This document shows positions 1,577 to 54,129 of a stretch of 54,657 bases of DNA, piece by piece. How positions within the stretch are numbered: position 1 is the stretch's first letter; each line of letters starts with the position of its first letter. The notes below the pieces were generated by a model. The model was given only the letters and a program-made list of their open reading frames with translations. It was not told the origin of the DNA and ran no database searches. Position numbers and translations under genes: made by a program. This DNA comes from a virus: positions 1 through 54,657 of the IMG/VR virus record IMGVR_UViG_3300032087_003663, one strand, 5' to 3'.

Positions 1577-1620
1577 GATCGCGAGTAGCCACATCCCTGT
1601 GCAAGTCTGGGGCGCGATCC
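1577..1620 (+). ncRNA. tRNA-like acceptor/T-arm element, copy 1
   Basis: A perfect 7-bp outer stem (GATCGCG 1577-1583 with CGCGATC 1613-1619) encloses an 11-nt linker and a T-arm-like hairpin, CCCTG-TGCAAGT-CTGGG (1595-1611). The hairpin stem has one T-T mismatch. The loop resembles the T-loop consensus TTCRANY, except that its second base is G. There is no D arm or anticodon arm. It sits between the stop at 1569 and the leader of the next gene and is followed by C and then TGTTTCTGTTTT. It matches copies 2 and 3 in architecture. It could instead act as a terminator hairpin. Confidence 0.5.
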
Positions 1621-1632
1621 TGTTTCTGTTTT
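1621..1632 (+). promoter_or_regulatory. TGTTTCTGTTT leader motif, copy 1
   Basis: The sequence TGTTTCTGTTTT begins 28 nt before the ATG at 1649 and is followed by CGGAGG. The same 11-mer recurs before the starts at 2424, 3402 and (minus strand) 47702. It directly abuts tRNA-like element 1. It may be a 5' leader or translation element, or the U-rich tail of a terminator; the sequence alone cannot decide. Confidence 0.5.
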
Positions 1633-1648
1633 AACTCGGAGGATAGTT

Positions 1649-1945
1649 ATGAAGTTTGTAGATGCCTTGCCATATGTGGCAAAGATTGTAGACACCGCGC
1701 TGAGTGTTCAGGACTGCATCGGTTCGGATGCTGGTCAAATGCTGGAAGGAAAGAAGTGCAAGTTGGTCGGCTGGCAATGCGGGTTTGAACCACATTTTAT
1801 CGCAGTGGTTGATGCGTATGACTGTGAAGTCGAGGACGACGAAGCAGAAGAAATTGCGGTCGATTACTTGGAAGAAAAAAACTGGTTCTGTGATCACCTT
1901 GACTCTCGCATTCCTGACTACGTCATTGGGAGAGCAGACGCATGA
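1649..1945 (+). CDS. Hypothetical acidic protein (98 aa)
   Basis: Unrecognised. The N-terminal helix (MKFVDALPYVAKIVDTAL) is followed by a compact alpha/beta-looking segment and an acidic C-terminal half (EVEDDEAEEIAVDYLEEK). There is no motif of known function. The start has a strong GGAGG Shine-Dalgarno at 1637-1643 and sits in the leader carrying TGTTTCTGTTTT. The stop overlaps the next ATG (ATGA at 1942), making a two-gene coupled block. Confidence 0.75.
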   Translation: MKFVDALPYVAKIVDTALSVQDCIGSDAGQMLEGKKCKLVGWQCGFEPHFIAVVDAYDCEVEDDEAEEIAVDYLEEKNWFCDHLDSRIPDYVIGRADA

Positions 1946-2328
1946 ACCGAGAAACTACATTTCACAATCCAGACCTGATCGAAATGTCTTACGGGCAGGT
2001 GCTGGATGCCATCGAGGACACCGACAGCAATCCGTTCGACATGACGATCCGTTGCCAAGACGAATGGACTGTGATCGCAGCATGCGTGAATGTTGGGATC
2101 GACTCCCACTTGGAGGCGATTGTCAACGCAGGCAAAGAGTTCGACAACGGGTCGTGTTCGGTAACTCCGCACAATCTGTGCATCCTGCTGCGACGATTGT
2201 CAGAGACAGACTTTGGCGATGACCATCTGTGGGACGCTGCTCATTCCTTGCAGAGCAGCATCCTGACTGTTCTGGGGTTCGATGACGCTGGCAAGTATGT
2301 GGGTCGGGAGACTTTGGGGCTGGAATAG
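1942..2328 (+). CDS. Hypothetical protein (128 aa)
   Basis: Unrecognised soluble protein, acidic, with two cysteine-containing strands (TIRCQDEWTVIAACV and SCSVTPHNLCILL). It starts by ATGA overlap with the 98-aa gene and ends before a 95-nt gap that holds tRNA-like element 2 and a leader motif. No paralogue is obvious among the neighbours, although the general style (short, acidic, tryptophan-containing) matches the rest of this arm. Confidence 0.72.
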   Translation: MNRETTFHNPDLIEMSYGQVLDAIEDTDSNPFDMTIRCQDEWTVIAACVNVGIDSHLEAIVNAGKEFDNGSCSVTPHNLCILLRRLSETDFGDDHLWDAAHSLQSSILTVLGFDDAGKYVGRETLGLE

Positions 2329-2347
2329 ATTCAGCCTGGAAATGTTT

Positions 2348-2390
2348 TGGTGCGATGGTCTGTGGCTGGGTTCGACTCCCAGCGCACCCC
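2348..2390 (+). ncRNA. tRNA-like acceptor/T-arm element, copy 2
   Basis: This is the clearest copy. A 6-bp outer stem (GGTGCG 2349-2354 with CGCACC 2383-2388) stacks directly on a perfect 5-bp T-stem, CTGGG-TTCGACT-CCCAG (2366-2382), with a consensus T-loop. An 11-nt linker (2355-2365) replaces the D and anticodon arms. Coaxial acceptor/T-stem hairpins of this kind are known minimal substrates of RNase P; that this one is processed is inference. It is followed by CC and then TGTTTCTGTTTTT. A Rho-independent terminator is the main alternative. Confidence 0.62.
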
Positions 2391-2403
2391 TGTTTCTGTT
2401 TTT
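2391..2403 (+). promoter_or_regulatory. TGTTTCTGTTT leader motif, copy 2
   Basis: TGTTTCTGTTTTT lies immediately after tRNA-like element 2 and 33 nt before the ATG at 2424. CGGAG follows as the ribosome binding site. Confidence 0.5.
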
Positions 2404-2423
2404 AACACTATCGGAGTTTCGTT

Positions 2424-2627
2424 ATGTCTTTAATCAGCAGGTATGAGGGTCGTTTTAAGAAGCAGTTCAGAAGGTTTGTGCGGCGAATCATGCACCACAT
2501 TCCCGTTGTTCGCGGTCGGCATGAGTACACATGCAATCGTTGTGGGTACAAAGAATATGAGAACTCAGTGGACAGTGATATGTGCCTCCGATGTGGGGCT
2601 GATGACTGGCATGCAGAAGACATTTAA
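2424..2627 (+). CDS. Small zinc-ribbon protein (67 aa)
   Basis: The basic N-terminal half (RYEGRFKKQFRRFVRRIMHH) precedes a zinc ribbon with CNRCGY at about residues 37-42 and CLRCGADDW at about 55-63, two CxxC knuckles separated by an acidic loop. Such mini-ribbons bind nucleic acid or proteins; the partner here is unknown. The start is set by CGGAG at 2412-2416 in the motif-bearing leader. It is the first gene of a block that runs through 2643 and 2882. Confidence 0.78.
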   Translation: MSLISRYEGRFKKQFRRFVRRIMHHIPVVRGRHEYTCNRCGYKEYENSVDSDMCLRCGADDWHAEDI

Positions 2628-2642
2628 GGAACAGGTGGAAGC

Positions 2643-2885
2643 ATGAAGTACGCACTAGTCGACACATTTAATAATGTCGTTCTGTCACTGCATCGGATCG
2701 AACGATGCGCTGAGGATGCTTTACAGAAGCATGATCGGCAAGTTCGCGCTGCAAACGGGGATACATCGTACATCCCCAAAGACATCATTTGGGATTCCGA
2801 TCACATTCTCAGGGTCGGATGGGTGTACGAGACACAGCAGTTGCAAGAAGTTGACACACACAGCCGAATGGAAGGAAAGTCATGA
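2643..2885 (+). CDS. Hypothetical protein (80 aa)
   Basis: Unrecognised small protein with mixed charge and predicted helix plus short strands (DHILRVGWVYETQQLQEV). It follows the zinc-ribbon gene by 15 nt with a GGTGGA-type ribosome site, and its TGA overlaps the start of the next gene (ATGA). No motif is evident. Confidence 0.7.
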   Translation: MKYALVDTFNNVVLSLHRIERCAEDALQKHDRQVRAANGDTSYIPKDIIWDSDHILRVGWVYETQQLQEVDTHSRMEGKS

Positions 2886-3247
2886 AAGATAAAGAGATTG
2901 AAAAGATCGTCGAACCATTGATTCCCAAGATCGCGAAAGTTTGCCAGCAGAACGATGCCCCACTTGGGAGAGTTGTGTGCTGCGGCGCGACCAGTGTTCG
3001 CCAGCGGGCTGACGGAGTCAAAGGAACTGTCACTGTCATCCTATCTGACTCGCATCCTGGTTGGCGGGCAAAGGACAATCATGCGGGTCGTTCGGCATTA
3101 AAGAATGGCGTTCAACAAGTCTTTTCGGGGCTGGACTGTGACTTCAACGTCAAAGTGCAAGCCTCTTACAGTTGCATGCAGGTCGATAATGGGGTCGTCG
3201 CTCGACGCAACGATTCCGGCGATGTCATTGGATGCTACGCGGAGTGA
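2882..3247 (+). CDS. Hypothetical protein (121 aa)
   Basis: Unrecognised. An amphipathic N-terminal helix (MKDKEIEKIVEPLIPKIAKVC) is followed by what looks like an alternating strand/helix domain containing GTVTVILSDSHPGW and an Arg/Asp-rich end. It begins by ATGA overlap with the 80-aa gene. Its stop is followed after 6 nt by tRNA-like element 3. Confidence 0.7.
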   Translation: MKDKEIEKIVEPLIPKIAKVCQQNDAPLGRVVCCGATSVRQRADGVKGTVTVILSDSHPGWRAKDNHAGRSALKNGVQQVFSGLDCDFNVKVQASYSCMQVDNGVVARRNDSGDVIGCYAE

Positions 3248-3252
3248 CACCC

Positions 3253-3315
3253 TGACGCGATGGGTTCAGCACTATCGACTCAGTGCTGCTGCTGCTCGAC
3301 TCGGCGGCGCGTCCC
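3253..3315 (+). ncRNA. tRNA-like element, copy 3 (with extra hairpin)
   Basis: The outer stem GACGCG (3254-3259) pairs with CGCGTC (3308-3313). Inside are a perfect 7-bp hairpin (CAGCACT-ATCGACTC-AGTGCTG, 3267-3288) in the anticodon-arm position and a 6-bp T-arm-like hairpin (CTGCTG-CTCGACT-CGGCGG, 3289-3307, two G-T pairs). The loop CTCGACT differs by one base from the T-loop of copy 2. It therefore looks like a three-way junction lacking only a D arm. It is followed by CCTGT, as in copies 1 and 2. There is no convincing 7-nt anticodon loop, so a functional tRNA is unlikely. Confidence 0.52.
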
Positions 3316-6481: not shown

Positions 6482-6850
6482 TCAGCTCTCAAGGGCGTTG
6501 ATGACAACACGACAGGCAGCAGTGTCTGCTTTCAGGTACAGGGTGGTGGAAGCACTGTTGATCCTAAAAGGGCCAGCAGTTTCACCGGCCATGAGCTTGC
6601 CGCCATATACACCAGTGCTGAAACCCCACTCGACAAAATTAGTTGAGTCAAGGTTTTGAATCGTACACCAACCCGGCGTTGTTAGTTCACTGAAAGCCTC
6701 AGTCTCTTCTGTGATTCCAATCTCTTTCATGCCGGGGGATGGACCGCCCACTGCTGCCTGGTCGTAGCTCTTTGTGCCGTAGTTTTGGCTAAAAGACAGG
6801 TTGCCATTATCTACAGACATCGATGCTGCGATTCGGATTTCATCAGCCAT
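6482..6850 (-). CDS. Probable virion-associated protein (122 aa)
   Basis: The Ser/Thr/Gly-rich beta-type sequence (LSFSQNYGTKSYDQ, WGFSTGVYGGKLMAGETAGPFRI, TTLYLKADTAACRVVI) looks like a small all-beta capsid or tail decoration domain. No specific family is assigned. Its ATG overlaps the stop of the giant gene (TAATG at 6850), so it is the immediate downstream cistron of the late operon. Confidence 0.75.
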   Translation of the reverse strand: MADEIRIAASMSVDNGNLSFSQNYGTKSYDQAAVGGPSPGMKEIGITEETEAFSELTTPGWCTIQNLDSTNFVEWGFSTGVYGGKLMAGETAGPFRINSASTTLYLKADTAACRVVINALES

Positions 6851-9800
6851 TAGTTTGCTCCCTTTTCTTGGTTCTTTCGGCGTTCCTTGCTACGTTTTGC
6901 AAGGATCTCAATTAAGAGTTCATATTGCGAAACTGCCCTTAATTCTTCTTCAGTCATGTTGGCTTTAATTTCATCGGGTATGTAGCTTTTTTGGAACTGC
7001 CTAGCACCCTGAGTTTGCAGAAACAATTCTGCTCTTTCTCGCAGGACTGCATCCTGACGTTGAGGACTTACGCTTGAAATCCTAAGTCCCGTCAAAGTAT
7101 TTGCTGCCCGTTGGGCAATGTTCTTTCGAGGATCAAACGCCGTCCTGACTGTATTTGTGTACCGGCTAAACGGCGATGCACCAGCAACTGCTTCGGTAAG
7201 TTTACCGAGGCGATACGGTTGCTTGCGATCTTTGTCTCGCAGTCCCAATCCTTGCGCCACGTTGCTTAACGCGCGACCCAACGGTGGATCAGCATCGTCC
7301 AAGTCAACACCACCGCTCACGCTCTGCTGGAAAGAGGATTCATCGAACGCAAGCTCCAGCGGGAGTTTCAATAGAGGGTTCATGTTGCCGATAACATTAA
7401 AGGCTGCATCACCTGGGTTTAATGCAGCAAACGGAGCCAACTGCTGGACTGGCTGCTCATGCATCATTCCGATGTTTGTCAGGTAATGCCTTGTGCCATC
7501 AGCGTTTGATCCCATTGGGAGAGACAGTCCTTTGCTGATGTACGTTGGGGTGGCAACATCCCTATCGCGACCATGACGCTGCGCACGAATTGCAATTCCC
7601 ACTTTCCCGGCTGGGTTCGTCGCCAACTCGTTAGCTAGGTAGACCGACATCCCCCTGCTGAAACTATAAAACGGGAAGAACCTTCGCATGTATTCCTTCT
7701 CAAAGGACGACAGGTTTGAGTAGTCCACCTGAACCAGCTTGACTATCCTTGCTGCCTCTTCTGGACTGTAGCCTTGGCGAAGCAACGCAATGAAGCCACC
7801 GGCGCGATGCTGAATTTCCACGGCATCACCGACATTTTGCGCAATGTCTAAATACTTTTTGTAGGTATCACGAACACGAATGACAGCCTTTTCCGACTGC
7901 GACATGCCTGCCTTAGCCCTTTTCGCAACTGGAGCCGTTTTTGATCTATTCAGTGCAAAAGAATTGCGTCCGAAAATAACCTTATCGTGCCTGCCAAAAC
8001 TTGGGCCGATCATTTGGGACCGAAGTGTTGCTGGGGCTTCACCGGGAATGTCGCGATGCGTTCCAGGGGCATTGATGATTTCATGGATAAACAACAACTC
8101 AGCAATCTCTTCCGTTGCTGCTTCGTCCTTGTTCTGTCCCTTGGCAACCTTGAGATCGCTGAATAGAGGAATGTCGCCAGCACCCTCAATGGTCTTGCCC
8201 TTCATTAAGGACTGACTATCTCCGTAAGGCTTGGTGTATCGACGAATATCCATTGCGCCGAAACGCGGATCAGTCACATCGTTGAGTGCATTCTGTATGA
8301 AACCGGAGAAGTAGTTCCTGACATGGAACCCTGGGTTGGTGCTTGTGACGTTTGTCTTGAATAGTTTGTTGTACCCGTCAAACCAGCCAATGAGCGAACC
8401 AATGCTGCTGTCGTCAGTCAGGTATGTGGTTGCCTTACTGACACTCACCAAGTCTTCAGCAATACGGCGAGGCAGTTTGACTTGCCCAAGCCACATCTGC
8501 GGCTCGATGTCTAGCTCCACACCCTTGTACTTGCGCTTGTCGCTACGCAAGGCGTTCCTGTACCAGTCGTCGTAAGATGCCTCTGGTATGTCCTGAATCT
8601 GCCTTTCAACACCCCTGAGTTGGCTCCTTAGCTCAGAAATGGCAGCTTTGTCATCAGACCCAGCAAGATCCTCCAGCTTGCCCTTCAGTTCATCTGCTTC
8701 GTTTTGCCAGTTGTCGCGATTTTCAATCCACCTTCGACGCCGGGCTGAATGCCGCTCACGCAAAATGTTTTGGCGGGCTGTTTCTGCGGCCTCTGGTGGT
8801 ATCAAGGCGACCATTGCTTTTCTTGCACGATCACCGCGATGATTTAGTTTCTTGGTTGTGGATCTTAGTGCGTCCAGATTGACGCCCATCGCGCCCATGA
8901 CGCTCTCGCCAGTTTCCGAGAAGAACGGAACCATGCCACTCGACTCAGGCTTCAAAAGTTCATTGAACAACTGGCCGACTCTTACATCATTTGCCAGCGA
9001 CTCGCCCCTCTTGCCCATGAGCTTAGACAAGTGCTGCTTGAACCCAGCCATGTACTTGTGCATGCCAACGGGAGGCTTGATCTTGCCCTCAGAGAAACGG
9101 ACCATGTCCTCTGCCATCCATTCCCTAGCCGACTTGGTTACTCCGCCCTTGGTGATACGCAAGTCCCAATTATTGTTGACCACGCCATACGTCTTCTGTG
9201 CCTGCTGACTTAGTGACGGATCAAGTCGGTCAAGTTCTTCGACCACCAAGTCTGACATGACTCGGACCATGTCCTGCGGCCTTGCTCCATCCATCGCACG
9301 GACGACTGTTCTCTTGCTGTTCGTCGCCCACTTGCTGCTAGGCATCTCCACTTGAGCTACTACTTCACCCTCTGCATTCCTGACTTCCCTCTTGACGCCA
9401 GAGAATGCTGACTGGAACAGCATGTCGGGATCTTTGCCCTCATCCGGCTTTGGCTTGTAAACCAAGTCTTCTGGTGTGGCATCGTCACCAAACAAATCCA
9501 TTTGATCACGGTCAACCTTAGCGTTGGATGTCTCAAACAAACTGCCTTGCTTGGCCTTTGGACCCTTCTTGATATCGCTTCTAAACTTTCGTCGCTTACC
9601 TTCGCCTTGAAACAGCCCCATCTGGTCACCAGCTACGGCATCCTCGTTCAGTAACGGTGCTGCTGGTTGGATTCCAGGCTGACTAACCTCAAGGGGATCT
9701 TCAATAGGAAACGGAATCGAATCAGCCGAGCCGCGATTCTGTGTCACAAGTTGCTTCGGCCACACTCCTCTGATACGGTCAAATCCTGACCTCTTGCCCT

Positions 9801-12800
9801 GCTCGCTCCACCGGATAGCCTCCTGACCACCAGCCGACTCAAGGATCACCGGCATTTTGGTTTCACCCTGTGCCGCCAATTCCATCGCACGGTGGCGACC
9901 CTCATGACCAACAACGCTCGCTGTCCCTTTTCCATCATTGCTAAATGACAGGTAAGGAAGGTCGCTAAACTTCTGCCCCTCTGCTACTGCTGCTGCGACA
10001 TTTTCCTGGCTCGATGGGCGGGCCTGATCCAAACGCTCTGCCATCCGCAGGAAATCTTGGATGTCCATCTCAACGATAGTACGTCGCGACTTATAGCCCG
10101 TGTCTGCTCTGTCGAACGCCTTTTGGTCAAAGTATTTGCCAGCCTCAAACATTTCAGGCTTGGGGTCTTGGCGAACAATAGCCCGCTGGAATTGCTCGTC
10201 AGGTGAAAGGCTTTCATTAGCAGCCTGCCTTCCTCTTGCAGCAATAACCTGATCGAAGATGTCACCCTCTTCATCTATCTGATCAACACCAAACACTTGC
10301 TCGTACACGCTCTGGCCGCGTTCCCTAGCCAGCTTGTCGGTCAAATCAAGTATCTGTTCGTCAGAGTAAATGTCTGGCTTACTCATTGCGATAGTATCAC
10401 GATACTTGGACTTTGGACCTTTTGCACCTCTGCGTTTATTTAGAGCCACAATCTCGCGATTGATTTCAAGATCAAGCAAAGCCTGAAAAATAGCTTCATC
10501 AGGATTGTTTTCGGTTGGCGAAAGCTGTGAAATGATTGGTGAATGCTCGCCAAAGTATTGAGTTGATGAAGCATCGTCAGAAAACTGCCAAGTTGTGTAA
10601 TCACCACCACGACCAGTGCTGTCATTTAGCGAGTCAACTATATGGCCTTTCTTAACAACACCTCGCTCGACATGATTGCGAGCAGACCTTGCCATCTTGA
10701 TAATGTTGTTGTCGATACGGTTGGCGTGCTGCTTTTCGGATTCGGTGAACACGCCATTCTTTTTCTTTCTTGGGACGGTAAACTTATCCCGCAGCAGTCG
10801 CAGCATCTGCGCCTGCTTTGTGCCGTCAATCGCATCATCTAAATGCAACGCAAGTGCGTCTTCAATTTCTTCTCGACGCGCTTTGGTTATGCTGTTTTTG
10901 TGGACACCGTAGTAATCCGCCAAGATGTCCCTTCGGCGGTGATGCTCTTTCCTTGATACCTTTGGTCGATTAGGAACATCGGGACCACGCTGCACTGGCT
11001 CTTTGCCAAGCATCGTGTCAAAGATGTCACGCATCTCATCCGACAGTTCCCGCTCCAGTGGCGTTCCGATTGCACCCTTGTATACGTCGATCAACCACTG
11101 CTTCATCCTGGAGAACACACTCTCCAGTTCTTTCGTTGGTGCTTTGCCAATAGATAGATAGCGTTCAAAGTCCTCAGCAAAAGCCTCTTCTTGTTCAACT
11201 GTCCATCTCGCAGCATTGACGCCATAGTGTTGTTCAGCACGCAAAAGCAAGTCGTCATCTAGCAGGTGCAACTGTCGCCTGAATGCGTGGGATAACTCAT
11301 GCGGCAAAGTGCTAAGATCGGAACCGTTAAACAAAGTAATAACCGCTTCTTCGCCAAGCTGGTTGGTAAAAATGGTTCCGCGAGGCGTACCCACCGCATC
11401 TCGCATTCGCTGGTGCAGCACGTTTTGAATATGCACATCCGCGTCATCAAAAATGACAAAGTTGTAACTCGCAGGCTTGTTGGTTCCGCGAGAAGTTCCG
11501 TCTAGGTATTTGACTCCCTTAACACCTCGCTCCAATAACATCTCCGAGGCTTCTTTCGGGGAAAAAATCGTTTCAAGCATGCGCAAGAAGTCGCCTCCCT
11601 CTGGGTCTTCGCCCAAGCCCATTGCCATTAGGGTTTGCTGGCGTACTGACATGCCGTCAATTTCTTTGACGAAGTCTTCCGGTGTGAGAAACTGACGTAA
11701 CCTAGCAATTTCGGGATCAACGCTGGCTTCGGCAGCATCGTAAATTGCGTCCTCGAATAACGGATACAATTCCTTCTCAAGGATGTCATCCAAAGCCTTG
11801 GCTACAACAGGGCTTGCGTCGGGGCCGAACGATGGATCATCCCACATGAGGTATTCACTCTCCTTGGGAGCAAGGTCAACCTCGTACAAGGTTCCTTTGC
11901 CTTGAACTAACTCACCATCGTCAACCATTCGATACATGGTCGCAATGATGTCTTCTGCTGGATAGATATCATCCTCGGTTAAAACATCCAGATCATAATC
12001 ACCAAGATTGCGAGCAGCGACTTTATCTGCACGCACACCTCTTGCATCAATCGTGTTGTATTGCCTTGCTTTGTACCGCAATGCACGCTCCACGGACGCT
12101 AGGTTGCGACCCGCTAGCGGTGGGCGCAGTGCTTCAATAACCTGTGCAACAAGGTATCGTTGGTCTGAGTTTCTAGCTGCGATCACCTCCGCATCAGAAA
12201 CAAAAGGATCATGCCCGAAAAATTTCGCCCTGTACTCTCCTATGCTCATATCGTCATAGTGCGCATCAGGAAATTGGTTCAAATCCCAGTCTGATATTTT
12301 TTCCCCGTTATACCGCCAACCACTCAAAGTCTCTCGGTAGTATCTGGCAACGCCCTTGCGTGATGCAAAGTAAAGGCCGTACCCATACACTTGCGCGCCT
12401 TCGCCCGTTCCTATCTTGCTTAAAGTAAACGCATCAAATGGCGGGATTCCGTTGCCATGAAAAGCTGACTGCTTGAGTATGTCGAAACGAGTTCCATGTG
12501 ACTTAATAGCGTTACGAGTTGTTCCGTACTCAGTTACCTCTCGCATAAACAATGTATTGCCAACAGCAATGACATCATTTCCTCTCCTGACTTCTTTTCC
12601 GTTACGCTTGTTATAGAAGAAGTTTGCTTTCTTTGGATTGAAGCCGAGCGGAGTCCAAGAATCTATGTCTGCTGGTATAACATTCTCCGCACCCTGCGGC
12701 GCACTAAGCTCTCCATATGCTCTCGCTAGAGTGGTTTTATTCTTTTCTCCTCTCGCGATGCGGTTGGACTCCTTTTGCTGCCCGACAGTAAGCTTCAAGT

Positions 12801-15800
12801 CAACCTCACCCTCGATCCGGGCATACCCTGCGTGAGCTATAACCTTTCCGCCTGCCTTGCCCTCATGCAACGTAACGACATATTCCCCGCTACTTTCAAA
12901 CGCAGGAATATCTATTCGCACCCCGACTCGTTGACCATCAAACTGGGAGATATCGACGACCTTGTCTCTCTTGTCAGAAGACAATATCTGACGCAACCTA
13001 TCGTTGCTTGGGATTCCTGTCTGCGAAATCCACTCACTATTTCGTGCGTCACCTATTGCCTGAAAGTCACCAGCACTAAGGTCAGACTTCATCCACGCCT
13101 TAAATGCAAGATTGTGTTTTTCTCCGCTGGTCGCTCCAGGCTTGAGCGATTCATCTCGCGTTAGAATCCATACGTCATACTGCGACCGAAAAACGGGATG
13201 GCGAGACTGTGCAAGAACCAAAGGATCTGTTTCAGTACGCACAAGAGATGAAACCGGCTGGCCTTTTATTAACTCAGCTTGGCTTAGAGTGTCCTCCCTG
13301 CCTTTGATATATTCGTCCAGCCGCCGGACTTGTGTCAGGTATCTCTCGTAGTATTCATCCACCGATCCGACATTGTTTTCTGACTTTACTACTTGGTTAG
13401 CAAAAGCATCTGACAACGCAATGTTGGCCGCGGCCTGTTCCTCACCAACAGTCTCAATCATCTGTGAGTAAACCCTGTCCCTTGCAGACGCGGTTGGGTC
13501 CAACTGATCTACCGCTCTCGGAGGAACCTTGAGATACGATTCAACCGATTGCTTTGCCCTCGCAAACTCACGCTTGATAGTGTTGAATTGCTTCCTTGTG
13601 AGGTCACCGCCTAGCTCTTGGCGTGACATATCAAGGTAAGTGTTTATACTGTCATCAACAGACTGCTCAAGGATTTCTGCGGCAAGCTCACCATCTTGCT
13701 TCATGGCATCGTCAAACCGCCCACCAGCGAGCATCTCCGATACCTCACCAACACGCTCACGAAACTCGGCTTCGTCAGCAGCCTGCGAATAACCCAGACG
13801 CTCGATCAATTCATCATCGCCATCTAGCATCTGACTTTGGAGAGATTCGGCAATGCTATCAGGATCATCTAAGCGATGGCTAATTGCCCGCATCTGTTCA
13901 TTGGTAAGCTCTAGCTGCCCTGTGGCCCTTCGCTCTCGCGGTCCTACCTGGACGCTTGTGTCCCTAGAAGGCTTGCGGATCATGACGATGTTCTGATCAA
14001 CAACAGTCTTCGTCCCATCTGCCCGGTAATCTACATCAAGCCTTACGCCCTCATGCCCTCGTCTATCCATCTCTGCGCGAAACTTGCTAACAGCTTCGTC
14101 ACCGATGTAATAATCTTCAAAAGAAGGATCAAGACGCTCGTAAAGATTTCCGTCTTCTGCGTCTACTCTGACTCCGATGCTTTCTAAGACCTCATTTGCC
14201 TCGCTTTCACTAATTAGCTTTGACTCATCAATCTCAAAGCGAAGCACCCTTCCGCCACCCGCGTTCGATTCATCTGCATAACGAGCCGCTTCTGACTTGT
14301 CCTTTGAAACAAACAAAAGACCATCGGACTCAGTCAAACCCGCCGGGTCTGGTGTCCCGTGATACACAGTAGTCAGCGATCCGCTTATTGCATCATCGAG
14401 CTTGCTAGTGCTTGGTCGCTTTGCAGCAGTACGCAGAGTCTCTGCTTTTTGCGAGGCGGCTGACTTACTGGCTAACTTATCTACTCTTGCCAGCACATTG
14501 GCATCTTCATCAAGAAAAACCAAACCAGCAACTTGGTTTCTTTCTTGGTATGACTTCATGATCGCATCTGGATACATGTCCTCAATCGTATCCACAACAC
14601 GACCCGGCACGATAAATCGATTGCCAAGCCCGTCAACGTATTGTGAAAGCTGCATTCCCTCTACTTCGGCATAGCCTTGGTATCCTGCATCGCCACTGAC
14701 AGACCTGACGATCTTGTCCTCGAAATCCTGTACGCTTTCCCTAGCCGCCCGCATTGTGTTGTCGCTTGCAGGCGTGCGGTTGCGGCCAAGACTTGCTAAG
14801 GCAGACGACTGATCGTCATCAGCAAGACGTATCATGTAAGATACACCATCAGACTTCCCCATAAAGAAGCCGGTTGCGTCGAGTACGTTGAGTGATCGAG
14901 AATCACTTGCATCGAACTGACTGAGCATCTCACCTGGCTCAAGCGGAGCGACATCTATTTCAGCGTCATCAAACTTGATGTTGCTCAGGTTCTCCTGAAC
15001 AGAATCTTGCTTGGCCTTGCCAGCCCTCTTTTTTGCCTCCTGATATATCGTCTGGCGAATCTGCTCGGCTGATCTTCCTTTAAGGCCATGACCTTCGCCA
15101 AATAGCTCATTGCGAAGTTTTCTTAACGCCGGGGCATTGACAGCAAGTACACCACCTTCCGCTGTCAGTTCCTCCAGGCTGGACTCACTTATCTCTCGTA
15201 TCCTGCTTTCGATGGTCGCGGTTTCTGCCGCATCGTCGATTTTCGTTACTCCCTTGGTATCACCCTCTTGGGCAGGAGATGATGACCCATCCGGTGTTCC
15301 CGCAGTAGGGCCATCTGGCTCAGGGGTTGCAGGATCGCCGTCACCGCCGGGGCCATCTCCACCATCAGGCCGCTTTACACCCGCACCTGTCTGATCAGGT
15401 GGAGTCCTGCCGTCCTGTATGTCAAGCTGCCGAACAACATCGCTCATGCCTTGGTCAGTTCCGCGACCGACTGTCTGAGCTGCCTCGCTTACTGTACCCA
15501 ACGCACTTTCAGCACCCTCAACTCCAAATGCGTTTTTGATTGCGGCTTCTGTCTCGTCGATGCCACGATCACGGACGACCATCGAATCCGCGACGATCTT
15601 TCGCAGCACATCTGCATTCGACCTAGCTTTATATGCTGACTCCAACGCTCTCAATGCCGCATCCGCTGGGTTGACGCTAAACAACGGGATATTCTTTTGG
15701 ACATCCTCTGGCGTTCGTTCAGTGATAGCCTTGAACAAGTCCTTCTTGGCATCGTCTGACAAATTTGCCATCTCTGCCCCATAGCCCTTGTCTACGGAGA

Positions 15801-17730
15801 AGAACTCATCTTGCAACTGACCCTTCTTCTCTGCCAGTTCTTTGGTTTTATTCCAGAGAGTTGGTGATAACCTGCCAGCAAACCTAGTGTCAGTGGACAT
15901 GCGGTTAAGTGCTGCGGTTCCGCCAACTATGTTTCTGTACCTGTCTTCTCGCTTGATCTTGTGAGGTGTCTCTGGATCAAACAATTTGGAACCACCAGAC
16001 TTGTTCCCCGTGATTGTGCCTTTGCTGGTCTGCCGGATTCTTGGGAAGTAGCTTGCGTACAAATCCTGCAACTGAGTGACATCGACATTCATGTCAGATG
16101 CTTCGACGACCAAGTCATCCATCTGAGTCTTGATGCGGTTGAGTGGTTCAATCGACGCTTGCAGCCTCGCGATTATGTCGTCAGCCTGTTCCGCAATCTC
16201 TGCATTGTCGCTGCCCTTCAGTGCGTCATACTTTTCTTTTAGGAACCTTGCCGCGTAGTCTTGGCTGGTTTCCTCAAATATCTCATCGCGACTGAGCATG
16301 AACTCTAGGATGCCGGAATCCTCATCCATCAACTCTTCGGCTATCAACTGATCGTCTTGCTTGCGAACGCGACCAACGTCCTCAAGGTATTCAATCATGA
16401 AGTTGCCCATCTGGTTCCGCTTCTGCTGCAACACTTCACCGGAAACTTCTTCGGCAACTTCACCGGCTTCGTTGTACTTGTTGAAGTCGTTTAGCAGAGG
16501 ATCAAGCTGACGGATGTTGTCAAACATTTCCTGCTTAGAAACCACGAAATCCTGCTGCAACAAGTTCTTGGCTTCTCGGATTGCCTTCTGTGATTCAGGA
16601 GTTTTTGCTCCCTCAAATGTTTTGCTCATTCGCGATGTGACGCCAATGATCGGCCTGCTGTACCGCATGCCGCGAGCAAGGCGATCAACACCCGGTGCAA
16701 GGCCACTACCAAATGACGTATCAACAATACCGCCGGGCAAGCGGAATCTCATGTAGCCATCTGATATGTTTGCGTCCTTGACCTCATCGACCATTTTGTT
16801 CCATTCCTTGGAACCACGCTTCGCACCTTTGGCCTCTGCTGCTTTCTTAAAGTGTTTATCGCCCGCTAAAGCATTCTCAAACTCTTTGCTTAAAGAGTCA
16901 CTTGCCTTGCCGGCAGATGTGCCGCTTTGCTTCACGGGGTTCTGAATGGCATCGGCTGCCGACATCTTGAGCAATGACTCACGCTTGCCGATATCCCCCG
17001 CTGCCTCACTGACCTTACCAGCATTCTTGGCGTAGATATCAATGTTATCTAGCAAGCCAACTTTCTTGAGTGACCTTGCAGCCTGCGCGCCCTTGCCAGC
17101 CCCTTTAACAGCAGCAGACGCACCGAAAGATAGATAGGTCAACGGATCAAGCAGGACTTCCAGACCGATGCCTGCTCCCATGCGACCCAATGTCGTACCT
17201 AAACCCTTGGGTTCTCCACTGTCGTCAAGAAGACCATACCCTTCAAGCAGTTCTTCGCCAGAGATCCTTACATCTGAGTCTGCCCAATTCCAAGGCAGCA
17301 ACTGATCGAGTGGATTTTCCGGTGCAGGACCGCCGGGCAACCAAGTAAGGACATCACGCACGACGCTACCTGGAACATCCAAGATGTTTCCAAGACCACC
17401 GACAGTATCTAATGCGGCATCACCTGTCTGTCGCAGAATCGACCTTTCGTCAACTTGCGACTCCATGCTTGGACGCGAAGGTGGCGCAATCGACGCCGGT
17501 TGCTGCTGCACTGTGCTTGGCTGCAATCGTGACGATGGCCGCTGTAGTTGCTCCTGCGCACGCTGACGCCGATATTCTTTCCCCGTAAGGAACGAATCTC
17601 TGCGCTGACGCTGTGGCTCAGTGTCCTCTACCAGCAAAGGACTGTCAGGTTGACCTAAGCCTAAGCCTGAACTCCTTGCCCCCGCGATGCCTGCTGCGCG
17701 TGCGTACTCGCCAGCCGTAAGGAATTGCAT
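6850..17730 (-). CDS. Giant polyvalent virion protein with two ART-like modules (about 3626 aa)
   Basis: One open frame of nearly 11 kb. The likely start is ATG 17730 (a TTG lies two codons earlier). Residues about 90-180 resemble the N-terminus of phage polyvalent proteins (VLLDPLTYLSFG). At about 1124 VYHGT opens an ADP-ribosyltransferase-like module. At about 1757 SAFHGNG, IGTGEGAQVYGYGLYFA and later GVKGVKYLDGTSRG match the ART-PolyVal type. HELSHAFRR (about 2146) is a zinc-peptidase-like HExxH. VGHEGRHRAME (about 2611) lies in a ParB-like domain. PGFHVRNYFSGF (about 3138) is a common signature of such injected proteins. It probably sits in the virion and enters the cell with DNA. It is the largest gene of the late operon. 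Confidence 0.93.
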   Translation of the reverse strand: MQFLTAGEYARAAGIAGARSSGLGLGQPDSPLLVEDTEPQRQRRDSFLTGKEYRRQRAQEQLQRPSSRLQPSTVQQQPASIAPPSRPSMESQVDERSILRQTGDAALDTVGGLGNILDVPGSVVRDVLTWLPGGPAPENPLDQLLPWNWADSDVRISGEELLEGYGLLDDSGEPKGLGTTLGRMGAGIGLEVLLDPLTYLSFGASAAVKGAGKGAQAARSLKKVGLLDNIDIYAKNAGKVSEAAGDIGKRESLLKMSAADAIQNPVKQSGTSAGKASDSLSKEFENALAGDKHFKKAAEAKGAKRGSKEWNKMVDEVKDANISDGYMRFRLPGGIVDTSFGSGLAPGVDRLARGMRYSRPIIGVTSRMSKTFEGAKTPESQKAIREAKNLLQQDFVVSKQEMFDNIRQLDPLLNDFNKYNEAGEVAEEVSGEVLQQKRNQMGNFMIEYLEDVGRVRKQDDQLIAEELMDEDSGILEFMLSRDEIFEETSQDYAARFLKEKYDALKGSDNAEIAEQADDIIARLQASIEPLNRIKTQMDDLVVEASDMNVDVTQLQDLYASYFPRIRQTSKGTITGNKSGGSKLFDPETPHKIKREDRYRNIVGGTAALNRMSTDTRFAGRLSPTLWNKTKELAEKKGQLQDEFFSVDKGYGAEMANLSDDAKKDLFKAITERTPEDVQKNIPLFSVNPADAALRALESAYKARSNADVLRKIVADSMVVRDRGIDETEAAIKNAFGVEGAESALGTVSEAAQTVGRGTDQGMSDVVRQLDIQDGRTPPDQTGAGVKRPDGGDGPGGDGDPATPEPDGPTAGTPDGSSSPAQEGDTKGVTKIDDAAETATIESRIREISESSLEELTAEGGVLAVNAPALRKLRNELFGEGHGLKGRSAEQIRQTIYQEAKKRAGKAKQDSVQENLSNIKFDDAEIDVAPLEPGEMLSQFDASDSRSLNVLDATGFFMGKSDGVSYMIRLADDDQSSALASLGRNRTPASDNTMRAARESVQDFEDKIVRSVSGDAGYQGYAEVEGMQLSQYVDGLGNRFIVPGRVVDTIEDMYPDAIMKSYQERNQVAGLVFLDEDANVLARVDKLASKSAASQKAETLRTAAKRPSTSKLDDAISGSLTTVYHGTPDPAGLTESDGLLFVSKDKSEAARYADESNAGGGRVLRFEIDESKLISESEANEVLESIGVRVDAEDGNLYERLDPSFEDYYIGDEAVSKFRAEMDRRGHEGVRLDVDYRADGTKTVVDQNIVMIRKPSRDTSVQVGPRERRATGQLELTNEQMRAISHRLDDPDSIAESLQSQMLDGDDELIERLGYSQAADEAEFRERVGEVSEMLAGGRFDDAMKQDGELAAEILEQSVDDSINTYLDMSRQELGGDLTRKQFNTIKREFARAKQSVESYLKVPPRAVDQLDPTASARDRVYSQMIETVGEEQAAANIALSDAFANQVVKSENNVGSVDEYYERYLTQVRRLDEYIKGREDTLSQAELIKGQPVSSLVRTETDPLVLAQSRHPVFRSQYDVWILTRDESLKPGATSGEKHNLAFKAWMKSDLSAGDFQAIGDARNSEWISQTGIPSNDRLRQILSSDKRDKVVDISQFDGQRVGVRIDIPAFESSGEYVVTLHEGKAGGKVIAHAGYARIEGEVDLKLTVGQQKESNRIARGEKNKTTLARAYGELSAPQGAENVIPADIDSWTPLGFNPKKANFFYNKRNGKEVRRGNDVIAVGNTLFMREVTEYGTTRNAIKSHGTRFDILKQSAFHGNGIPPFDAFTLSKIGTGEGAQVYGYGLYFASRKGVARYYRETLSGWRYNGEKISDWDLNQFPDAHYDDMSIGEYRAKFFGHDPFVSDAEVIAARNSDQRYLVAQVIEALRPPLAGRNLASVERALRYKARQYNTIDARGVRADKVAARNLGDYDLDVLTEDDIYPAEDIIATMYRMVDDGELVQGKGTLYEVDLAPKESEYLMWDDPSFGPDASPVVAKALDDILEKELYPLFEDAIYDAAEASVDPEIARLRQFLTPEDFVKEIDGMSVRQQTLMAMGLGEDPEGGDFLRMLETIFSPKEASEMLLERGVKGVKYLDGTSRGTNKPASYNFVIFDDADVHIQNVLHQRMRDAVGTPRGTIFTNQLGEEAVITLFNGSDLSTLPHELSHAFRRQLHLLDDDLLLRAEQHYGVNAARWTVEQEEAFAEDFERYLSIGKAPTKELESVFSRMKQWLIDVYKGAIGTPLERELSDEMRDIFDTMLGKEPVQRGPDVPNRPKVSRKEHHRRRDILADYYGVHKNSITKARREEIEDALALHLDDAIDGTKQAQMLRLLRDKFTVPRKKKNGVFTESEKQHANRIDNNIIKMARSARNHVERGVVKKGHIVDSLNDSTGRGGDYTTWQFSDDASSTQYFGEHSPIISQLSPTENNPDEAIFQALLDLEINREIVALNKRRGAKGPKSKYRDTIAMSKPDIYSDEQILDLTDKLARERGQSVYEQVFGVDQIDEEGDIFDQVIAARGRQAANESLSPDEQFQRAIVRQDPKPEMFEAGKYFDQKAFDRADTGYKSRRTIVEMDIQDFLRMAERLDQARPSSQENVAAAVAEGQKFSDLPYLSFSNDGKGTASVVGHEGRHRAMELAAQGETKMPVILESAGGQEAIRWSEQGKRSGFDRIRGVWPKQLVTQNRGSADSIPFPIEDPLEVSQPGIQPAAPLLNEDAVAGDQMGLFQGEGKRRKFRSDIKKGPKAKQGSLFETSNAKVDRDQMDLFGDDATPEDLVYKPKPDEGKDPDMLFQSAFSGVKREVRNAEGEVVAQVEMPSSKWATNSKRTVVRAMDGARPQDMVRVMSDLVVEELDRLDPSLSQQAQKTYGVVNNNWDLRITKGGVTKSAREWMAEDMVRFSEGKIKPPVGMHKYMAGFKQHLSKLMGKRGESLANDVRVGQLFNELLKPESSGMVPFFSETGESVMGAMGVNLDALRSTTKKLNHRGDRARKAMVALIPPEAAETARQNILRERHSARRRRWIENRDNWQNEADELKGKLEDLAGSDDKAAISELRSQLRGVERQIQDIPEASYDDWYRNALRSDKRKYKGVELDIEPQMWLGQVKLPRRIAEDLVSVSKATTYLTDDSSIGSLIGWFDGYNKLFKTNVTSTNPGFHVRNYFSGFIQNALNDVTDPRFGAMDIRRYTKPYGDSQSLMKGKTIEGAGDIPLFSDLKVAKGQNKDEAATEEIAELLFIHEIINAPGTHRDIPGEAPATLRSQMIGPSFGRHDKVIFGRNSFALNRSKTAPVAKRAKAGMSQSEKAVIRVRDTYKKYLDIAQNVGDAVEIQHRAGGFIALLRQGYSPEEAARIVKLVQVDYSNLSSFEKEYMRRFFPFYSFSRGMSVYLANELATNPAGKVGIAIRAQRHGRDRDVATPTYISKGLSLPMGSNADGTRHYLTNIGMMHEQPVQQLAPFAALNPGDAAFNVIGNMNPLLKLPLELAFDESSFQQSVSGGVDLDDADPPLGRALSNVAQGLGLRDKDRKQPYRLGKLTEAVAGASPFSRYTNTVRTAFDPRKNIAQRAANTLTGLRISSVSPQRQDAVLRERAELFLQTQGARQFQKSYIPDEIKANMTEEELRAVSQYELLIEILAKRSKERRKNQEKGAN

Positions 17731-17767
17731 AATCAATTATTGATGTTATGAGTATGGTTTGTCTTGA

Positions 17768-46906: not shown

Positions 46907-47292
46907 TGTTCGGCCATCTCGGCCAGATCGGGAAAAAGCGATAACGGAAGATCACCCCAATGGACAGGACCGCCTTCTGAAGTTGAAAGATGCTCTTTTG
47001 GGTAACTGTTTAAGTCGATCTCAATGTACCCCTCGTCGCGTTTCCTGATGGGCAGGTGAACTTCCAGCGATTCAACAGCCATAGGGTCACCAACTTGATC
47101 AAGCTCGTACCACAGCCCGTCCATTCCATAAGTGTGATTACCGACTTCTGGGTGAATCGTCACTGTGTCATCGGACCACTTAGCGAGAACTGTTACATTG
47201 CCTCTGTAAGTTTCGCCCATTGAATCTGCAACGATTTTGCAATACGGAACTCCAAGGTGAACCAGATACTCTTCTTTTTTTGGATTACTCAT
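46903..47292 (-). CDS. Hypothetical protein (129 aa)
   Basis: Soluble acidic protein with beta-type segments (YRGNVTVLAKWSDDTVTIHP, YELDQVGDPMAVESLEVHLP) and a C-terminal helix. No motif found. Its ATG overlaps the stop of the DnaB-N-like gene (ATGA). Confidence 0.7.
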   Translation of the reverse strand: MSNPKKEEYLVHLGVPYCKIVADSMGETYRGNVTVLAKWSDDTVTIHPEVGNHTYGMDGLWYELDQVGDPMAVESLEVHLPIRKRDEGYIEIDLNSYPKEHLSTSEGGPVHWGDLPLSLFPDLAEMAEQ

Positions 47293-47702
47293 ACCAACGC
47301 TTCCTTTTCTTGAATAACATCCTTAACTTTCAACACACACGCTTCGACATCAGCAATCGCTTGCGAGATATCGGTGTCCGGTTTTACTTGCATCAGATCG
47401 ATGCAGTGCTGTAGCTCGCGGCGAGCATTGTTTAGATTGACTTGGGCAATGAGCGAGTCGCAGATGTTGTCGCTGACCTCAAAGCCAAATTGCTTGAAAA
47501 CACCCTTGGCGACTTCGATGTCAAACGAGTCTCGCGACTCAACTGCCTGGAAACACTTCGCAGCCATCGGTGACTGAAGCTTGTCAAACTCGATTGACTC
47601 GCAAATTCTTTCTCGGTCGCCAGCACGACCCAGTGCCATCCCTAGCAACAGTAGCTCCAGCCGGAACTCTCGATTCTTCCTCATTGTGTCCACGCTATTC
47701 AT
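47289..47702 (-). CDS. Orphan DnaB N-terminal-domain-like protein (137 aa)
   Basis: Start ATG 47702 (MNSVDTMRKNREFRLELLLL) is chosen for its GGAG at 6 nt; ATGs at 47711 and 47756 lie inside the leader. ELLLLGMALGRAGDRERICE, FDKLQSPMAAKCFQAVESRD and DSLIAQVNLNNARRELQHCI look like the helical N-terminal domain of replicative helicase DnaB, without the ATPase. Such a stand-alone domain could recruit or block host DnaB or primase. The link is by pattern, not alignment. Confidence 0.6.
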   Translation of the reverse strand: MNSVDTMRKNREFRLELLLLGMALGRAGDRERICESIEFDKLQSPMAAKCFQAVESRDSFDIEVAKGVFKQFGFEVSDNICDSLIAQVNLNNARRELQHCIDLMQVKPDTDISQAIADVEACVLKVKDVIQEKEALV

Positions 47703-47715
47703 AAATCGCTCCATC

Positions 47716-47726
47716 AAACAGAAACA
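47716..47726 (-). promoter_or_regulatory. TGTTTCTGTTT leader motif, minus-strand copy
   Basis: On the minus strand ATACACAATTTTCTGTTTCTG leads into GTTTGATGGAG and the ATG at 47702, 24 nt from the motif start. Same 11-mer as in the left-arm leaders, again in the gap after a tRNA-like element (47984-48069), though about 250 nt downstream of it. Confidence 0.45.
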
Positions 47727-48074
47727 GAAAATTGTGTATTTGCGTACCACCGGCATATCTTTAGAGAGACATCATTGACTCTCGTAAGACTCTGTGACCC
47801 TCAATCCAGCCCCCAAGAATCATCCCTCCGCTGTCTCTCTGTGACTTGCCCTTGCCGTTCGGGGCATCGCTTTGGGTGGGTGCTTTTACTCGCTGCCGGT
47901 CAGTTCCTCACCTCACCGGGATGTTTGCCTTGAGTTGTTTGCGAGTGGTTTCAGGTACGTTGCTTGTCAGTAGTTTTTCAAAAGAGGGTTACAGGAGTCG
48001 AACCTGCTCGGTTGCAATGCACAGCGGGCTGCTGCGTTTGTCATCGCCAAGTGCCGGGCCATTACCCTCGTCCC
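47727..48074 (-). other. Largest intergenic gap of the right operon
   Basis: About 320 nt between the SSB-like gene and the DnaB-N-like gene hold no convincing gene. The right third is tRNA-like element 4. The remainder (47757-47980) shows only a possible 20-codon frame at 47761-47823 and no strong promoter or terminator I could identify. The gap interrupts an otherwise overlapping operon, so a processing or attenuation point is likely. Confidence 0.6.
47984..48069 (-). ncRNA. tRNA-like element 4 (degenerate tRNA)
   Basis: Minus strand: GAGGGTA (48069-48063) pairs with AACCCTC (47990-47984) except for one A-A mismatch. The T-arm GCAGG-TTCGACT-CCTGT (48007-47991) has a consensus loop identical to element 2. 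A possible 3-bp D-stem (GCC/GGC) and a 5-bp anticodon-like hairpin (CGCAG-CAGCCCG-CTGTG) exist, but that loop lacks U33 and spacing is wrong, so a working tRNA is doubtful. It begins 6 nt after the SSB-like gene's stop. Confidence 0.48.
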
Positions 48075-48317
48075 TTAGAAAGGGATGTCTTCACTGTTTG
48101 CTGCGGATGACGCTGGAACATTCGCTCCGTCCACACGCTTGAAACTAAGGCTGTAGAACGAGCCGCTGCCATCCTTTCGCTGCTTCTGCCAGCCATCGAT
48201 GTAATACTCAGTTCCATCGATCTCACACTTGCCTTTAATGTCAGCATGCGTGTCTTTTTCTTTTCGATCATTCCTCGAAATGATCCCGGTCATGTTGTTG
48301 TCATACTGTTTCGCCAT
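48075..48317 (-). CDS. Small phage protein with SSB-like acidic tail (80 aa)
   Basis: NDRKEKDTHADIKGKCEIDG then EYYIDGWQKQRKDGSGSFYS is the signature of a short phage family I recall next to recombination genes. The C-terminus NSEDIPF copies the acidic DDDIPF tip of bacterial SSB, which docks RecO, PriA and other partners. A single-strand-binding or SSB-mimic function is inferred. The start overlaps the upstream gene by 17 nt. Confidence 0.75.
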   Translation of the reverse strand: MAKQYDNNMTGIISRNDRKEKDTHADIKGKCEIDGTEYYIDGWQKQRKDGSGSFYSLSFKRVDGANVPASSAANSEDIPF

Positions 48318-50228: not shown

Positions 50229-50943
50229 CATCAGCACACTCCTTAGCAAGGTTGAACTCTGCCTCGATCTGATCCAGCACTTCTTCATACTTGGCGTAGA
50301 AACCAAACTGGCTCATATGCCGGATCAAATGCCTAAGTGACTCCGTACCCATGCGATGATACGTTTCGACTTGTCTCTCAGTCAGTTTGTTCCTGATGTA
50401 GTCAGGCTCAGGGCGATCCTTGATGACCACGGTCTTTCCCTGTGGCTCAGGTTCCGGTTCCGGCTCAGGGTCTGGAGCGTAATTGTCGAACGCTATAGGC
50501 CGCTTTGGCTCACGCTCTGGAACCACACGCTTGACAGCTTCTCGAATCAGATTCGCTGGCAGATTAGGCTTCCGCTTCTCTTCGGCCAGCACACCAATCT
50601 CTTCAAGCACCTGACCCAGTTGCTCGTCAGGAACCTTTAGCAATTCCCTGCACTGTCGCTCGGTCGTGATCCTTTCAGCACAGCCAAAAGTGCTGCCCAA
50701 GGTCAGCACTTTTTCCAGCACACCTGTTGCCATAATGTTCCTGTCTGCGTAATCACGCTTGATCCCAAATTCTTGCTGACAGTATTTGTCAAACGACTTG
50801 AAGCCCCTGACTTTGTAAAGCTGTAAATCGCGAATCGACTTGAGCGCGGCAAACGCTTCCAAGCCTTTTCTGAATCCCTCTCGCACCTTCACTTCTAGGT
50901 CAGCAAGCTCAACCGACTCTGCGTCCATCAATTCAGTTTCCAT
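50215..50943 (-). CDS. DNA-binding replication/partition-like protein (242 aa)
   Basis: The N-terminal domain FRKGLEAFAALKSIRDLQLY then FKSFDKYCQQEFGIKRDYAD is the helix-turn-helix segment seen in phage and plasmid replication or ParB-like proteins. A PEPEPEPEPQ linker at about 170 separates it from a helical C-terminal domain (LRHLIRHMSQFGFYAKYEEV). Position before the helicase suggests an origin-binding role. ATG at 50943 overlaps the end of the methyltransferase by 11 nt. Confidence 0.75.
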   Translation of the reverse strand: METELMDAESVELADLEVKVREGFRKGLEAFAALKSIRDLQLYKVRGFKSFDKYCQQEFGIKRDYADRNIMATGVLEKVLTLGSTFGCAERITTERQCRELLKVPDEQLGQVLEEIGVLAEEKRKPNLPANLIREAVKRVVPEREPKRPIAFDNYAPDPEPEPEPEPQGKTVVIKDRPEPDYIRNKLTERQVETYHRMGTESLRHLIRHMSQFGFYAKYEEVLDQIEAEFNLAKECADAFTR

Positions 50944-51763: not shown

Positions 51764-51772
51764 CGTTAAAAT

Positions 51773-51833
51773 GCCCGATTCAGGAATCGAACCTGACTGA
51801 TCAGGGAGTAACGAACTTTCCACGGTATCGGTC
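51773..51833 (-). ncRNA. tRNA-like element 5 in the methyltransferase leader
   Basis: Minus strand: perfect T-arm TCAGG-TTCGATT-CCTGA (51796-51780) followed by ATCGGGC (51779-51773), which pairs with GACCGAT (51833-51827) at six of seven positions. The 30 nt between contain no clear D or anticodon arm. It lies between the stop at 51879 and the methyltransferase start. If translation starts at 51841 the same bases would be coding (SLLPDQSGSIPES), which is the main alternative. Confidence 0.42.
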
Positions 51834-51878
51834 CCTTTCATTTAGTAATGTGACCAGCGACCATCGAACGGACCCACT

Positions 51879-52226
51879 TCACTTAATGCGAATCCCACAA
51901 ACTTTCTTTCCGGCGAACCGGACGTTTTCATTGACGTAGAGAGTGATCTCCTGATCCTTCCAGTCCTTGACGTTGTTCCCAAATAGCTCCACCATTCGCT
52001 TTCGATTAGTGGAGTTCAGGACCAACTGCTTACCCTTCCCTTTGAACTCAAGAGCGAAGACCGTGTCTTCCTTTCGACCTTGATCGAACTGCACATCCTT
52101 ATGCTTACGGCAGGCCGCGACAGTCACTTTGACGGTCTGCCCCTGAATGTCCTCCGAGGAGAGCCACTGCGAGACTTTCATTTCCCCGCTGCGTCCCTCA
52201 AACTCCTCGCCTTGCTCACTCATCAA
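51879..52226 (-). CDS. OB-like phage recombination-associated protein (115 aa)
   Basis: SSEDIQGQTVKVTVAACRKH, LVLNSTNRKRMVELFGNN and WKDQEITLYVNENVRFAGKK, then GIRIK follow a pattern I know from many phages (a beta-barrel-like protein with a LNxTN helix and ITLYxxxVxFxGxxxxGIRI ending), encoded next to exonucleases. Function not established; single-strand binding is plausible. Overlaps the RecE-like gene by 11 nt. Confidence 0.75.
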   Translation of the reverse strand: MMSEQGEEFEGRSGEMKVSQWLSSEDIQGQTVKVTVAACRKHKDVQFDQGRKEDTVFALEFKGKGKQLVLNSTNRKRMVELFGNNVKDWKDQEITLYVNENVRFAGKKVCGIRIK

Positions 52227-54045: not shown

Positions 54046-54128
54046 GGAGGATAAGCGAATTGGTGAGCAGCTTCACTGGAACTGAAGTACCGAGCAATCG
54101 GCTGCGGGTTCGAGTCCCGTGTCCTCCG
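54046..54128 (+). tRNA. tRNA-Ser (anticodon GGA)
   Basis: Acceptor GGAGGAT pairs with GTCCTCC (one G-T), discriminator G. The anticodon stem CTTCA/TGAAG encloses CTGGAAC, anticodon GGA, with U33 and A37. A long variable arm (CCGA-GCAA-TCGG) fits the serine type. The T-arm GCGGG-TTCGAGT-CCCGT is canonical. The D region is weak (A at position 8, two-pair stem). CCA is not encoded. It ends 2 nt before the integrase stop, so it may be the attachment site or a phage-borne tRNA. Confidence 0.8.
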
Positions 54129-54129
54129 C

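Follow-up and report, generated by a model that had tools for sequence, protein, structure and literature searches.

We propose, with a confidence a little short of an even chance, that a group of uncultured phages punctuates its mRNAs with mimics of the top half of a tRNA, namely elements behind stop codons in polycistronic transcripts in which an acceptor-like stem and a T-arm are predicted to stack coaxially over ~11-13 bp. The shape of the elements, their sense-strand intergenic placement, the conservation of their stems with compensation and the freedom between their arms are what the sequence itself supports. The stretch analyzed (the window) is the IMG/VR virus record IMGVR_UViG_3300032087_003663, positions 1 to 54,657 (54,657 nucleotides). 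A preliminary description had reported that three successive gaps of its left arm each contain an acceptor-like stem over a T-arm-like hairpin, and direct reading and pattern scans agree; of the gaps in the first 3.4 kb, the three longer ones hold the copies. The count of three was incomplete, as two more, longer elements on the − strand had been missed. The elements of the window are the following:

1577..1619, + strand: minihelix copy 1, 7-bp acceptor, 11-nt linker, loop TGCAAGT; 7 nt past the stop of gene 826-1569
2349..2388, + strand: minihelix copy 2, 6-bp acceptor, 11-nt linker, perfect T-arm with loop TTCGACT; 20 nt past the stop of gene 1942-2328
3254..3313, + strand: copy 3, 6-bp acceptor, 30-nt insert with one hairpin, loop CTCGACT; 6 nt past the stop of gene 2882-3247
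48069-47984, − strand: longer tRNA-like element, 5 nt past the stop of the ssb gene 48075-48317; orthologues in G008, G009, G001, G022 and G030/G028
about 51869-51773, − strand: tRNA-like element between gene 51879-52226 and a C5 DNA methyltransferase gene (probable start 51763)

Copy 1 reads GATCGCG(1577-1583)-AGTAGCCACAT-CCCTG-TGCAAGT-CTGGG-G-CGCGATC(1613-1619); its T-stem has one U:U (T:T in the DNA) mismatch, and the T-arm is absent from the minimum-energy fold. Copy 2, GGTGCG(2349-2354)-ATGGTCTGTGG-CTGGG-TTCGACT-CCCAG-CGCACC(2383-2388), combines a canonical loop with a perfect T-arm, and this layout is its minimum-energy fold. The minimum-energy fold of copy 3, GACGCG(3254-3259)-30 nt with hairpin CAGCACT/AGTGCTG-TGCTG-CTCGACT-CGGCG-G-CGCGTC(3308-3313), has the same layout with the T-arm register shifted. 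Both the D arm and the anticodon arm are missing from copies 1 and 2, whose linkers are, as first described, equal at 11 nt, and reading of the sequence likewise confirms the one additional hairpin (7 bp) in the insert of copy 3. On the − strand, the element behind ssb consists of a GAGGGT/ACCCTC acceptor, a 56-nt insert with a long arm and the T-arm GCAGG-TTCGACT-CCTGT, and the one beside the methyltransferase has the T-arm TCAGG-TTCGATT-CCTGA, with an uncertain acceptor pairing (GTTCGAT/ATCGGGC, or 6/7 from 51875).

A scan of the whole window for this layout returned six hits against 0.37 expected, a number reached by 0 of 60 shuffles, although one of the six is a true tRNA-Ser and the T-loop rule had to be loosened, after copies 1 and 3 had been seen, for these two to pass. 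Restricted to same-strand gaps of the window, the count is five elements against at most one in 300 shuffles. Folding energy alone does not set the left-arm copies apart from shuffled sequence (z-scores of −0.9 to +1.1), and the free-energy z-scores of most elements are not significant. These values bear on the doubtful, though not negligible, alternative that the stems of copies 1 and 3 arose by chance, leaving copy 2 and the elements linked to ssb and to the methyltransferase as the whole of the real family. Copies 1 and 3 are indeed weaker than copy 2, since they have no canonical T-loop, no known orthologues and a fold no better than shuffled; against chance stands that they lie in gaps of the type that also holds copy 2 and that their score was reached by 0 of 400 shuffles of each gap, under the loop rule loosened to admit them.

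To place the elements in an evolutionary context, relatives were gathered by searches with the SSB and the large terminase, which yielded a group of uncultured viruses (G numbers). The terminase and the major head protein had no match in any phage isolate, and a host search of GTDB genomes by pattern, with SSB and terminase alignments, found no relative. Pattern search of IMG/VR gave no relatives of the left-arm proteins, and orthologues of copies 1-3 were therefore not found; L174/L175, which are relatives of gene 6482-6850, hold no minihelix. The strongest evidence is comparative and comes from the slot behind ssb (gene 48075-48317, an SSB of phrog_7364): directly behind ssb, G008, G009, G001, G022 and G030/G028 have the same acceptor and T-arm, while the length of the insert between them varies freely (55 nt in G008, 42 in G009, 12 in G001, 39 in G022 and 56 in G030/G028). 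The G001 element is a pure minihelix, AGGGGTG-12 nt-GCAGG-TTCGACT-CCTGC-TGCCCCT. Compensatory stem changes, sought in related phages, are present. In the ssb-slot alignment A3 (G000, G008, G009 and G001; pairs counted on the alignment and in a script), 95.8% of the acceptor and T-stem cells are paired, compared with 46-65% when slid, and compensation by changes on both sides is seen in four of the 12 pairs, a result reached by 3 of 500 shuffles.

Further elements in the relatives lie at G005 14227 (with an 11-nt linker, as in copies 1 and 2), G030 22401 (15-nt linker) and G030 27282. Across the 11 listed elements, acceptor strands pair to 96% with their own partner and to 49% when swapped, the elements having been selected for pairing, and the T-loop TTCGAYT is found in nine (copy 2 and eight of the 10 others), with copies 1 and 3 being variant. 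Acceptors range from 5 to 8 bp, whereas the coaxial acceptor plus T-stem measures 11-13 bp in most elements and exactly 12 in those of G009, G001 and G030 22401. None of the listed elements encodes CCA, which is an optional feature of tRNA genes in phages. In G025/G037 the ssb slot instead contains a plain hairpin followed by TTTT, and an ordinary stem can therefore replace the tRNA-like element. This hairpin, together with the closeness of the elements to stop codons, is what one would expect if they were stable mRNA 3′-end structures, that is, 3′ exonuclease barriers or attenuators that tRNA enzymes leave uncut and whose shape matters only for stability or protein binding. We regard this as unlikely, since a plain barrier needs neither a 7-nt TTCGAYT T-loop nor an outer acceptor stem that is compensated across a long, variable insert.

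Orientation and position provide a second line of evidence. Sense-strand elements occur in 12 of the 69 same-strand gaps of seven related contigs (gene models from a crude script), and an antisense match in a single one, which is a genuine tRNA-Ser gene; dinucleotide-shuffled gaps contain 0.02 elements on average and never 12 (0 of 300). Ten elements begin 5-22 nt past the upstream stop codon (Fisher P of 4e-4 against uniform placement, a value that includes orthologous, hence not independent, cases from the ssb slot), the exception being G030 27282, about 126 nt behind the stop. The family of acceptor/T-arm elements put forward in the preliminary description is thus upheld: the layout recurs in relatives, its stems are compensated, and its sense-strand intergenic placement is strict. 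The same strictness of orientation and stop-codon distance makes it quite improbable that the elements are decaying phage tRNA genes or functionless remnants of a duplicated tRNA-derived element, the latter having been offered at the outset as one of two interpretations. It is true that phages commonly carry tRNA genes, that the same genome has a true tRNA-Ser, and that the elements at 48069, 51869 and G030 27282 are nearly of class-II tRNA length. However, the elements are unlike this tRNA-Ser and unlike each other, the copies sharing almost no sequence beyond the T-loop, and in the orthologous ssb slot pairing is kept through compensation, with acceptor and T-arm persisting while the insert is lost, replaced or turned over.

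A further feature noted initially, the sequence CCTGT after the 3′ strand, is literally present at all three left-arm copies but does not generally belong to the element. The stem of copy 1 already includes its first C, and after copies 1 and 2 CCTGT forms the start of CTGTTTCTGTTT, a (CTGTTT)n motif. A DNA pattern joining the T-loop to CCTGTTTCTGTT had 12 matches in all of IMG/VR, none of them with the structure, and CCTGT therefore does not belong to a widespread element. The CTGTTTCTGTTT motif is also found without an adjoining minihelix, 5′ of a Shine-Dalgarno sequence and start codon, both elsewhere in the window virus and in G008, G009 and G022. Its occurrences in the window include:

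1620..1632, + strand: CTGTTTCTGTTTT motif, 5′ of the Shine-Dalgarno sequence of gene 1649-1945
2390..2402, + strand: CTGTTTCTGTTTT motif, 5′ of gene 2424-2627
47716..47727, − strand: CTGTTTCTGTTT motif, 5′ of gene 47289-47702, no adjoining minihelix; kept in G008 and G009

The CTGTTTCTGTTT/(CTGTTT)n motif is a separate 5′-UTR signal of the virus group and not part of the tRNA-like element. Repeats of the type (CTGTTT)2-3 were seen at 1620, 2390, 3365, 47716 (−), G008 871 (−), G022 171 (−) and G022 1032, shortly 5′ of a Shine-Dalgarno sequence and start codon whether or not a minihelix is present, and possibly represent a promoter or translation signal of the group.

The T-rich tails (CTGTTTCTGTTTT) after copies 1 and 2, and the TTTT after the ssb-slot elements of G000, G008 and G009, might suggest intrinsic terminators or attenuators whose stems resemble tRNA arms by chance. 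We consider this very unlikely and rejected the class: a terminator scan did not pick up any left-arm copy, roughly half of the elements lack a T-run (among them copy 3 and those of G001, G005, G022 and G030 22401), and an outer stem closing over up to about 75 nt is unlike a terminator.

Comparison with known RNA classes gave the following picture. ARAGORN and an Rfam scan of the window both found the tRNA-Ser at 54046 alone and none of the elements, those on the − strand included, and ARAGORN called none in the relatives either. A decoding tRNA gene (RF00005) was rejected in the absence of a call for a cloverleaf with a D arm and a 7-nt anticodon loop; the T-arm with a UUCRANN loop stacked on an acceptor stem is present (with variant loops in copies 1 and 3), yet no element matches the Rfam tRNA model above threshold, and the T-loop is the only sequence in common with tRNA genes. 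Scanned alone, the 48069-47984 element scored 15.6 bits as tRNA-Sec, against a gathering score of 47. For tmRNA (RF00023), also rejected, the best result was 12 bits over 17 positions, in copy 2 only, with a gathering score of 47. The tRNA-like domain of tmRNA is likewise an upper tRNA half without an anticodon arm, and tmRNA is processed by RNase P, but the window elements have no GGNUUCGAC D-loop, G3-U70, CCA or tag ORF. The Y RNA-like YrlA (RF02553) was dismissed at 16.6 bits for the G022 element versus a gathering score of 69. Remnants of an attachment site were considered in view of the integrase beside the tRNA-Ser and rejected, as the minihelices are unlike that tRNA:

54046..54129, + strand: ordinary tRNA-Ser(GGA) gene beside a tyrosine integrase, kept in the group; not the source of the minihelices

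The segment 54046-54657, in which this gene adjoins the integrase also in relatives, is probably an attachment site carried within the phage.

Punctuation by tRNAs is a textbook principle of organelle genomes, where tandem tRNAs punctuate transcripts and tRNA structures separate cistrons. The spacers there are functional tRNAs, whereas the phage elements cannot decode. A closer parallel is given by the t-elements of plant mitochondria, tRNA-like structures at mRNA ends that are not used in translation, have no encoded CCA and are thought to set transcript ends via RNase P and RNase Z; once cut out of the mRNAs, such tRNA-like pieces can acquire CCA although they are not charged (PMC11658184). 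Tied to the phage elements by a tRNA-like structure at sense-strand mRNA ends, t-elements differ in being recognizable relatives of full tRNAs, with a tRNA-like secondary structure, while two of the phage copies have no D or anticodon arm and reside in a DNA phage. Moreover, the RNase P RNA of E. coli cuts synthetic hairpins of acceptor, T-stem and T-loop at the canonical site, with a preference for RCCA (PMC11143913). Such substrates (AT1 and pMini) resemble our elements in stacking the acceptor on a T-stem with T-loop, free of D and anticodon domains (PMC11143913), but they are contiguous hairpins with a 3′ RCCA, unlike the phage elements with their linker of 11-16 nt (or longer) and no CCA. 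The layout of the minimal RNase P hairpin, a coaxial stack of ~12 bp plus a T-loop, is found in the phage, and RCCA is not encoded. Phages also supply natural RNase P substrates, namely M3 RNA, C4 RNA and T4 gene 32 mRNA (PMC11143913). Gene 32 encodes an SSB as well, but these cases, with C4 from P1/P7, are single ones as opposed to the recurrent family described here.

By analogy, the best reading is that the elements are natural counterparts of the RNase P hairpin substrates and would set mRNA ends as mitochondrial t-elements do. What is kept is what RNase P and RNase Z read (the ~12-bp coaxial stack and a T-loop with T54, C56 and A58), and what is free is needed only for decoding; this match, together with the known hairpin and phage substrates and the t-elements, favors punctuation. 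The absence of an encoded CCA, the plain hairpin of G025/G037, the acceptor range of 5 to 8 bp, the mismatch in copy 1 and the z-scores weigh against it. In the proposed sequence of events, the element would fold after translation of the upstream gene, and host RNase P, which recognizes exactly this tRNA half, would cut on its 5′ side, possibly with RNase Z cutting on the 3′ side. The upstream mRNA would then end a few nucleotides past its stop codon. Whatever follows, be it the downstream cistron or, in the case of ssb, a non-coding RNA of roughly 250 nt, would be released with its own 5′ end. This would amount to punctuation of the mitochondrial type, carried out with the smallest possible piece of a tRNA. 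Given the closeness of the stop codon, the acceptor stem would be kept from closing while a ribosome terminates there, and processing may therefore follow translation. More tentatively, and with somewhat less confidence than in punctuation as such, we suggest that in this uncultured DNA phage group the armless minihelices are dedicated processing signals for RNase P (perhaps also RNase Z) that punctuate the polycistronic mRNAs and release a conserved non-coding RNA after ssb. Mitochondrial t-elements and synthetic RNase P substrates come closest among known systems; our partial literature search found no natural, recurrent armless form in phages and no phage reported to punctuate its messages with a minimal acceptor/T-arm hairpin. 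If true, the proposal would extend tRNA-type message punctuation to phages and add a route by which they borrow host tRNA maturation in shaping their messages. Were hairpins of this kind a natural family, the minimum established in the laboratory for RNase P recognition would prove to be in use in nature, and annotators would gain a signal to which present tRNA and RNA-family tools are entirely blind.

Several features around the elements deserve mention. Between the ssb-slot element and the next gene lies a non-coding stretch of ~250 nt (47716-47983, −). Its sequence is almost unchanged in G008 and also in G009, whose tRNA-like insert is nevertheless a different one; in G001, G022 and G025 the place is taken by another non-coding stretch, with a GGGGGGTAAGGGGGG motif common to them. 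The window's stretch, which has no Rfam match, is possibly a structured non-coding RNA. The cassette of the C5 DNA methyltransferase (50933-51878, −), an insertion relative to G008, carries its own tRNA-like element; in this close relative both element and methyltransferase are absent and the flanks continuous, and the element therefore moves with the inserted cassette. Elsewhere in the window, 6850-17736 (−) is an open reading frame of 3628 aa, for which all PHROG matches are weak.

Finally, other phages have tRNA-like sequences of different kinds. In L111, L112, L114 and L115 we observed a D-arm-poor serine-tRNA-like sequence with a possible CGA anticodon and a GCCA end, which ARAGORN did not call in L111 or L115. 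tmRNA-like RNAs without a tag ORF occur in at least 18 other phage contigs, and ARAGORN misses those on which it was run. One fills the ssb-downstream slot of L102 (8246-8317), L104 and L106, where 7 nt replace the 308-nt mRNA-like part, and another lies at L098:5666-5731; these two were scored with the Rfam tmRNA model, at 50.9 and 50.7 bits, respectively. A pattern scan returned 15 contigs (L176-L190), one of which is L098's own, and several further sequence types exist in IMG/VR phages. At 66-72 nt, these RNAs comprise the full tmRNA acceptor, a UCGAC D-loop, the T-arm, G3-U70 and ACCA, and have no tag-coding or pseudoknot part, and it is possible that they act as alanine-charged decoys of trans-translation.
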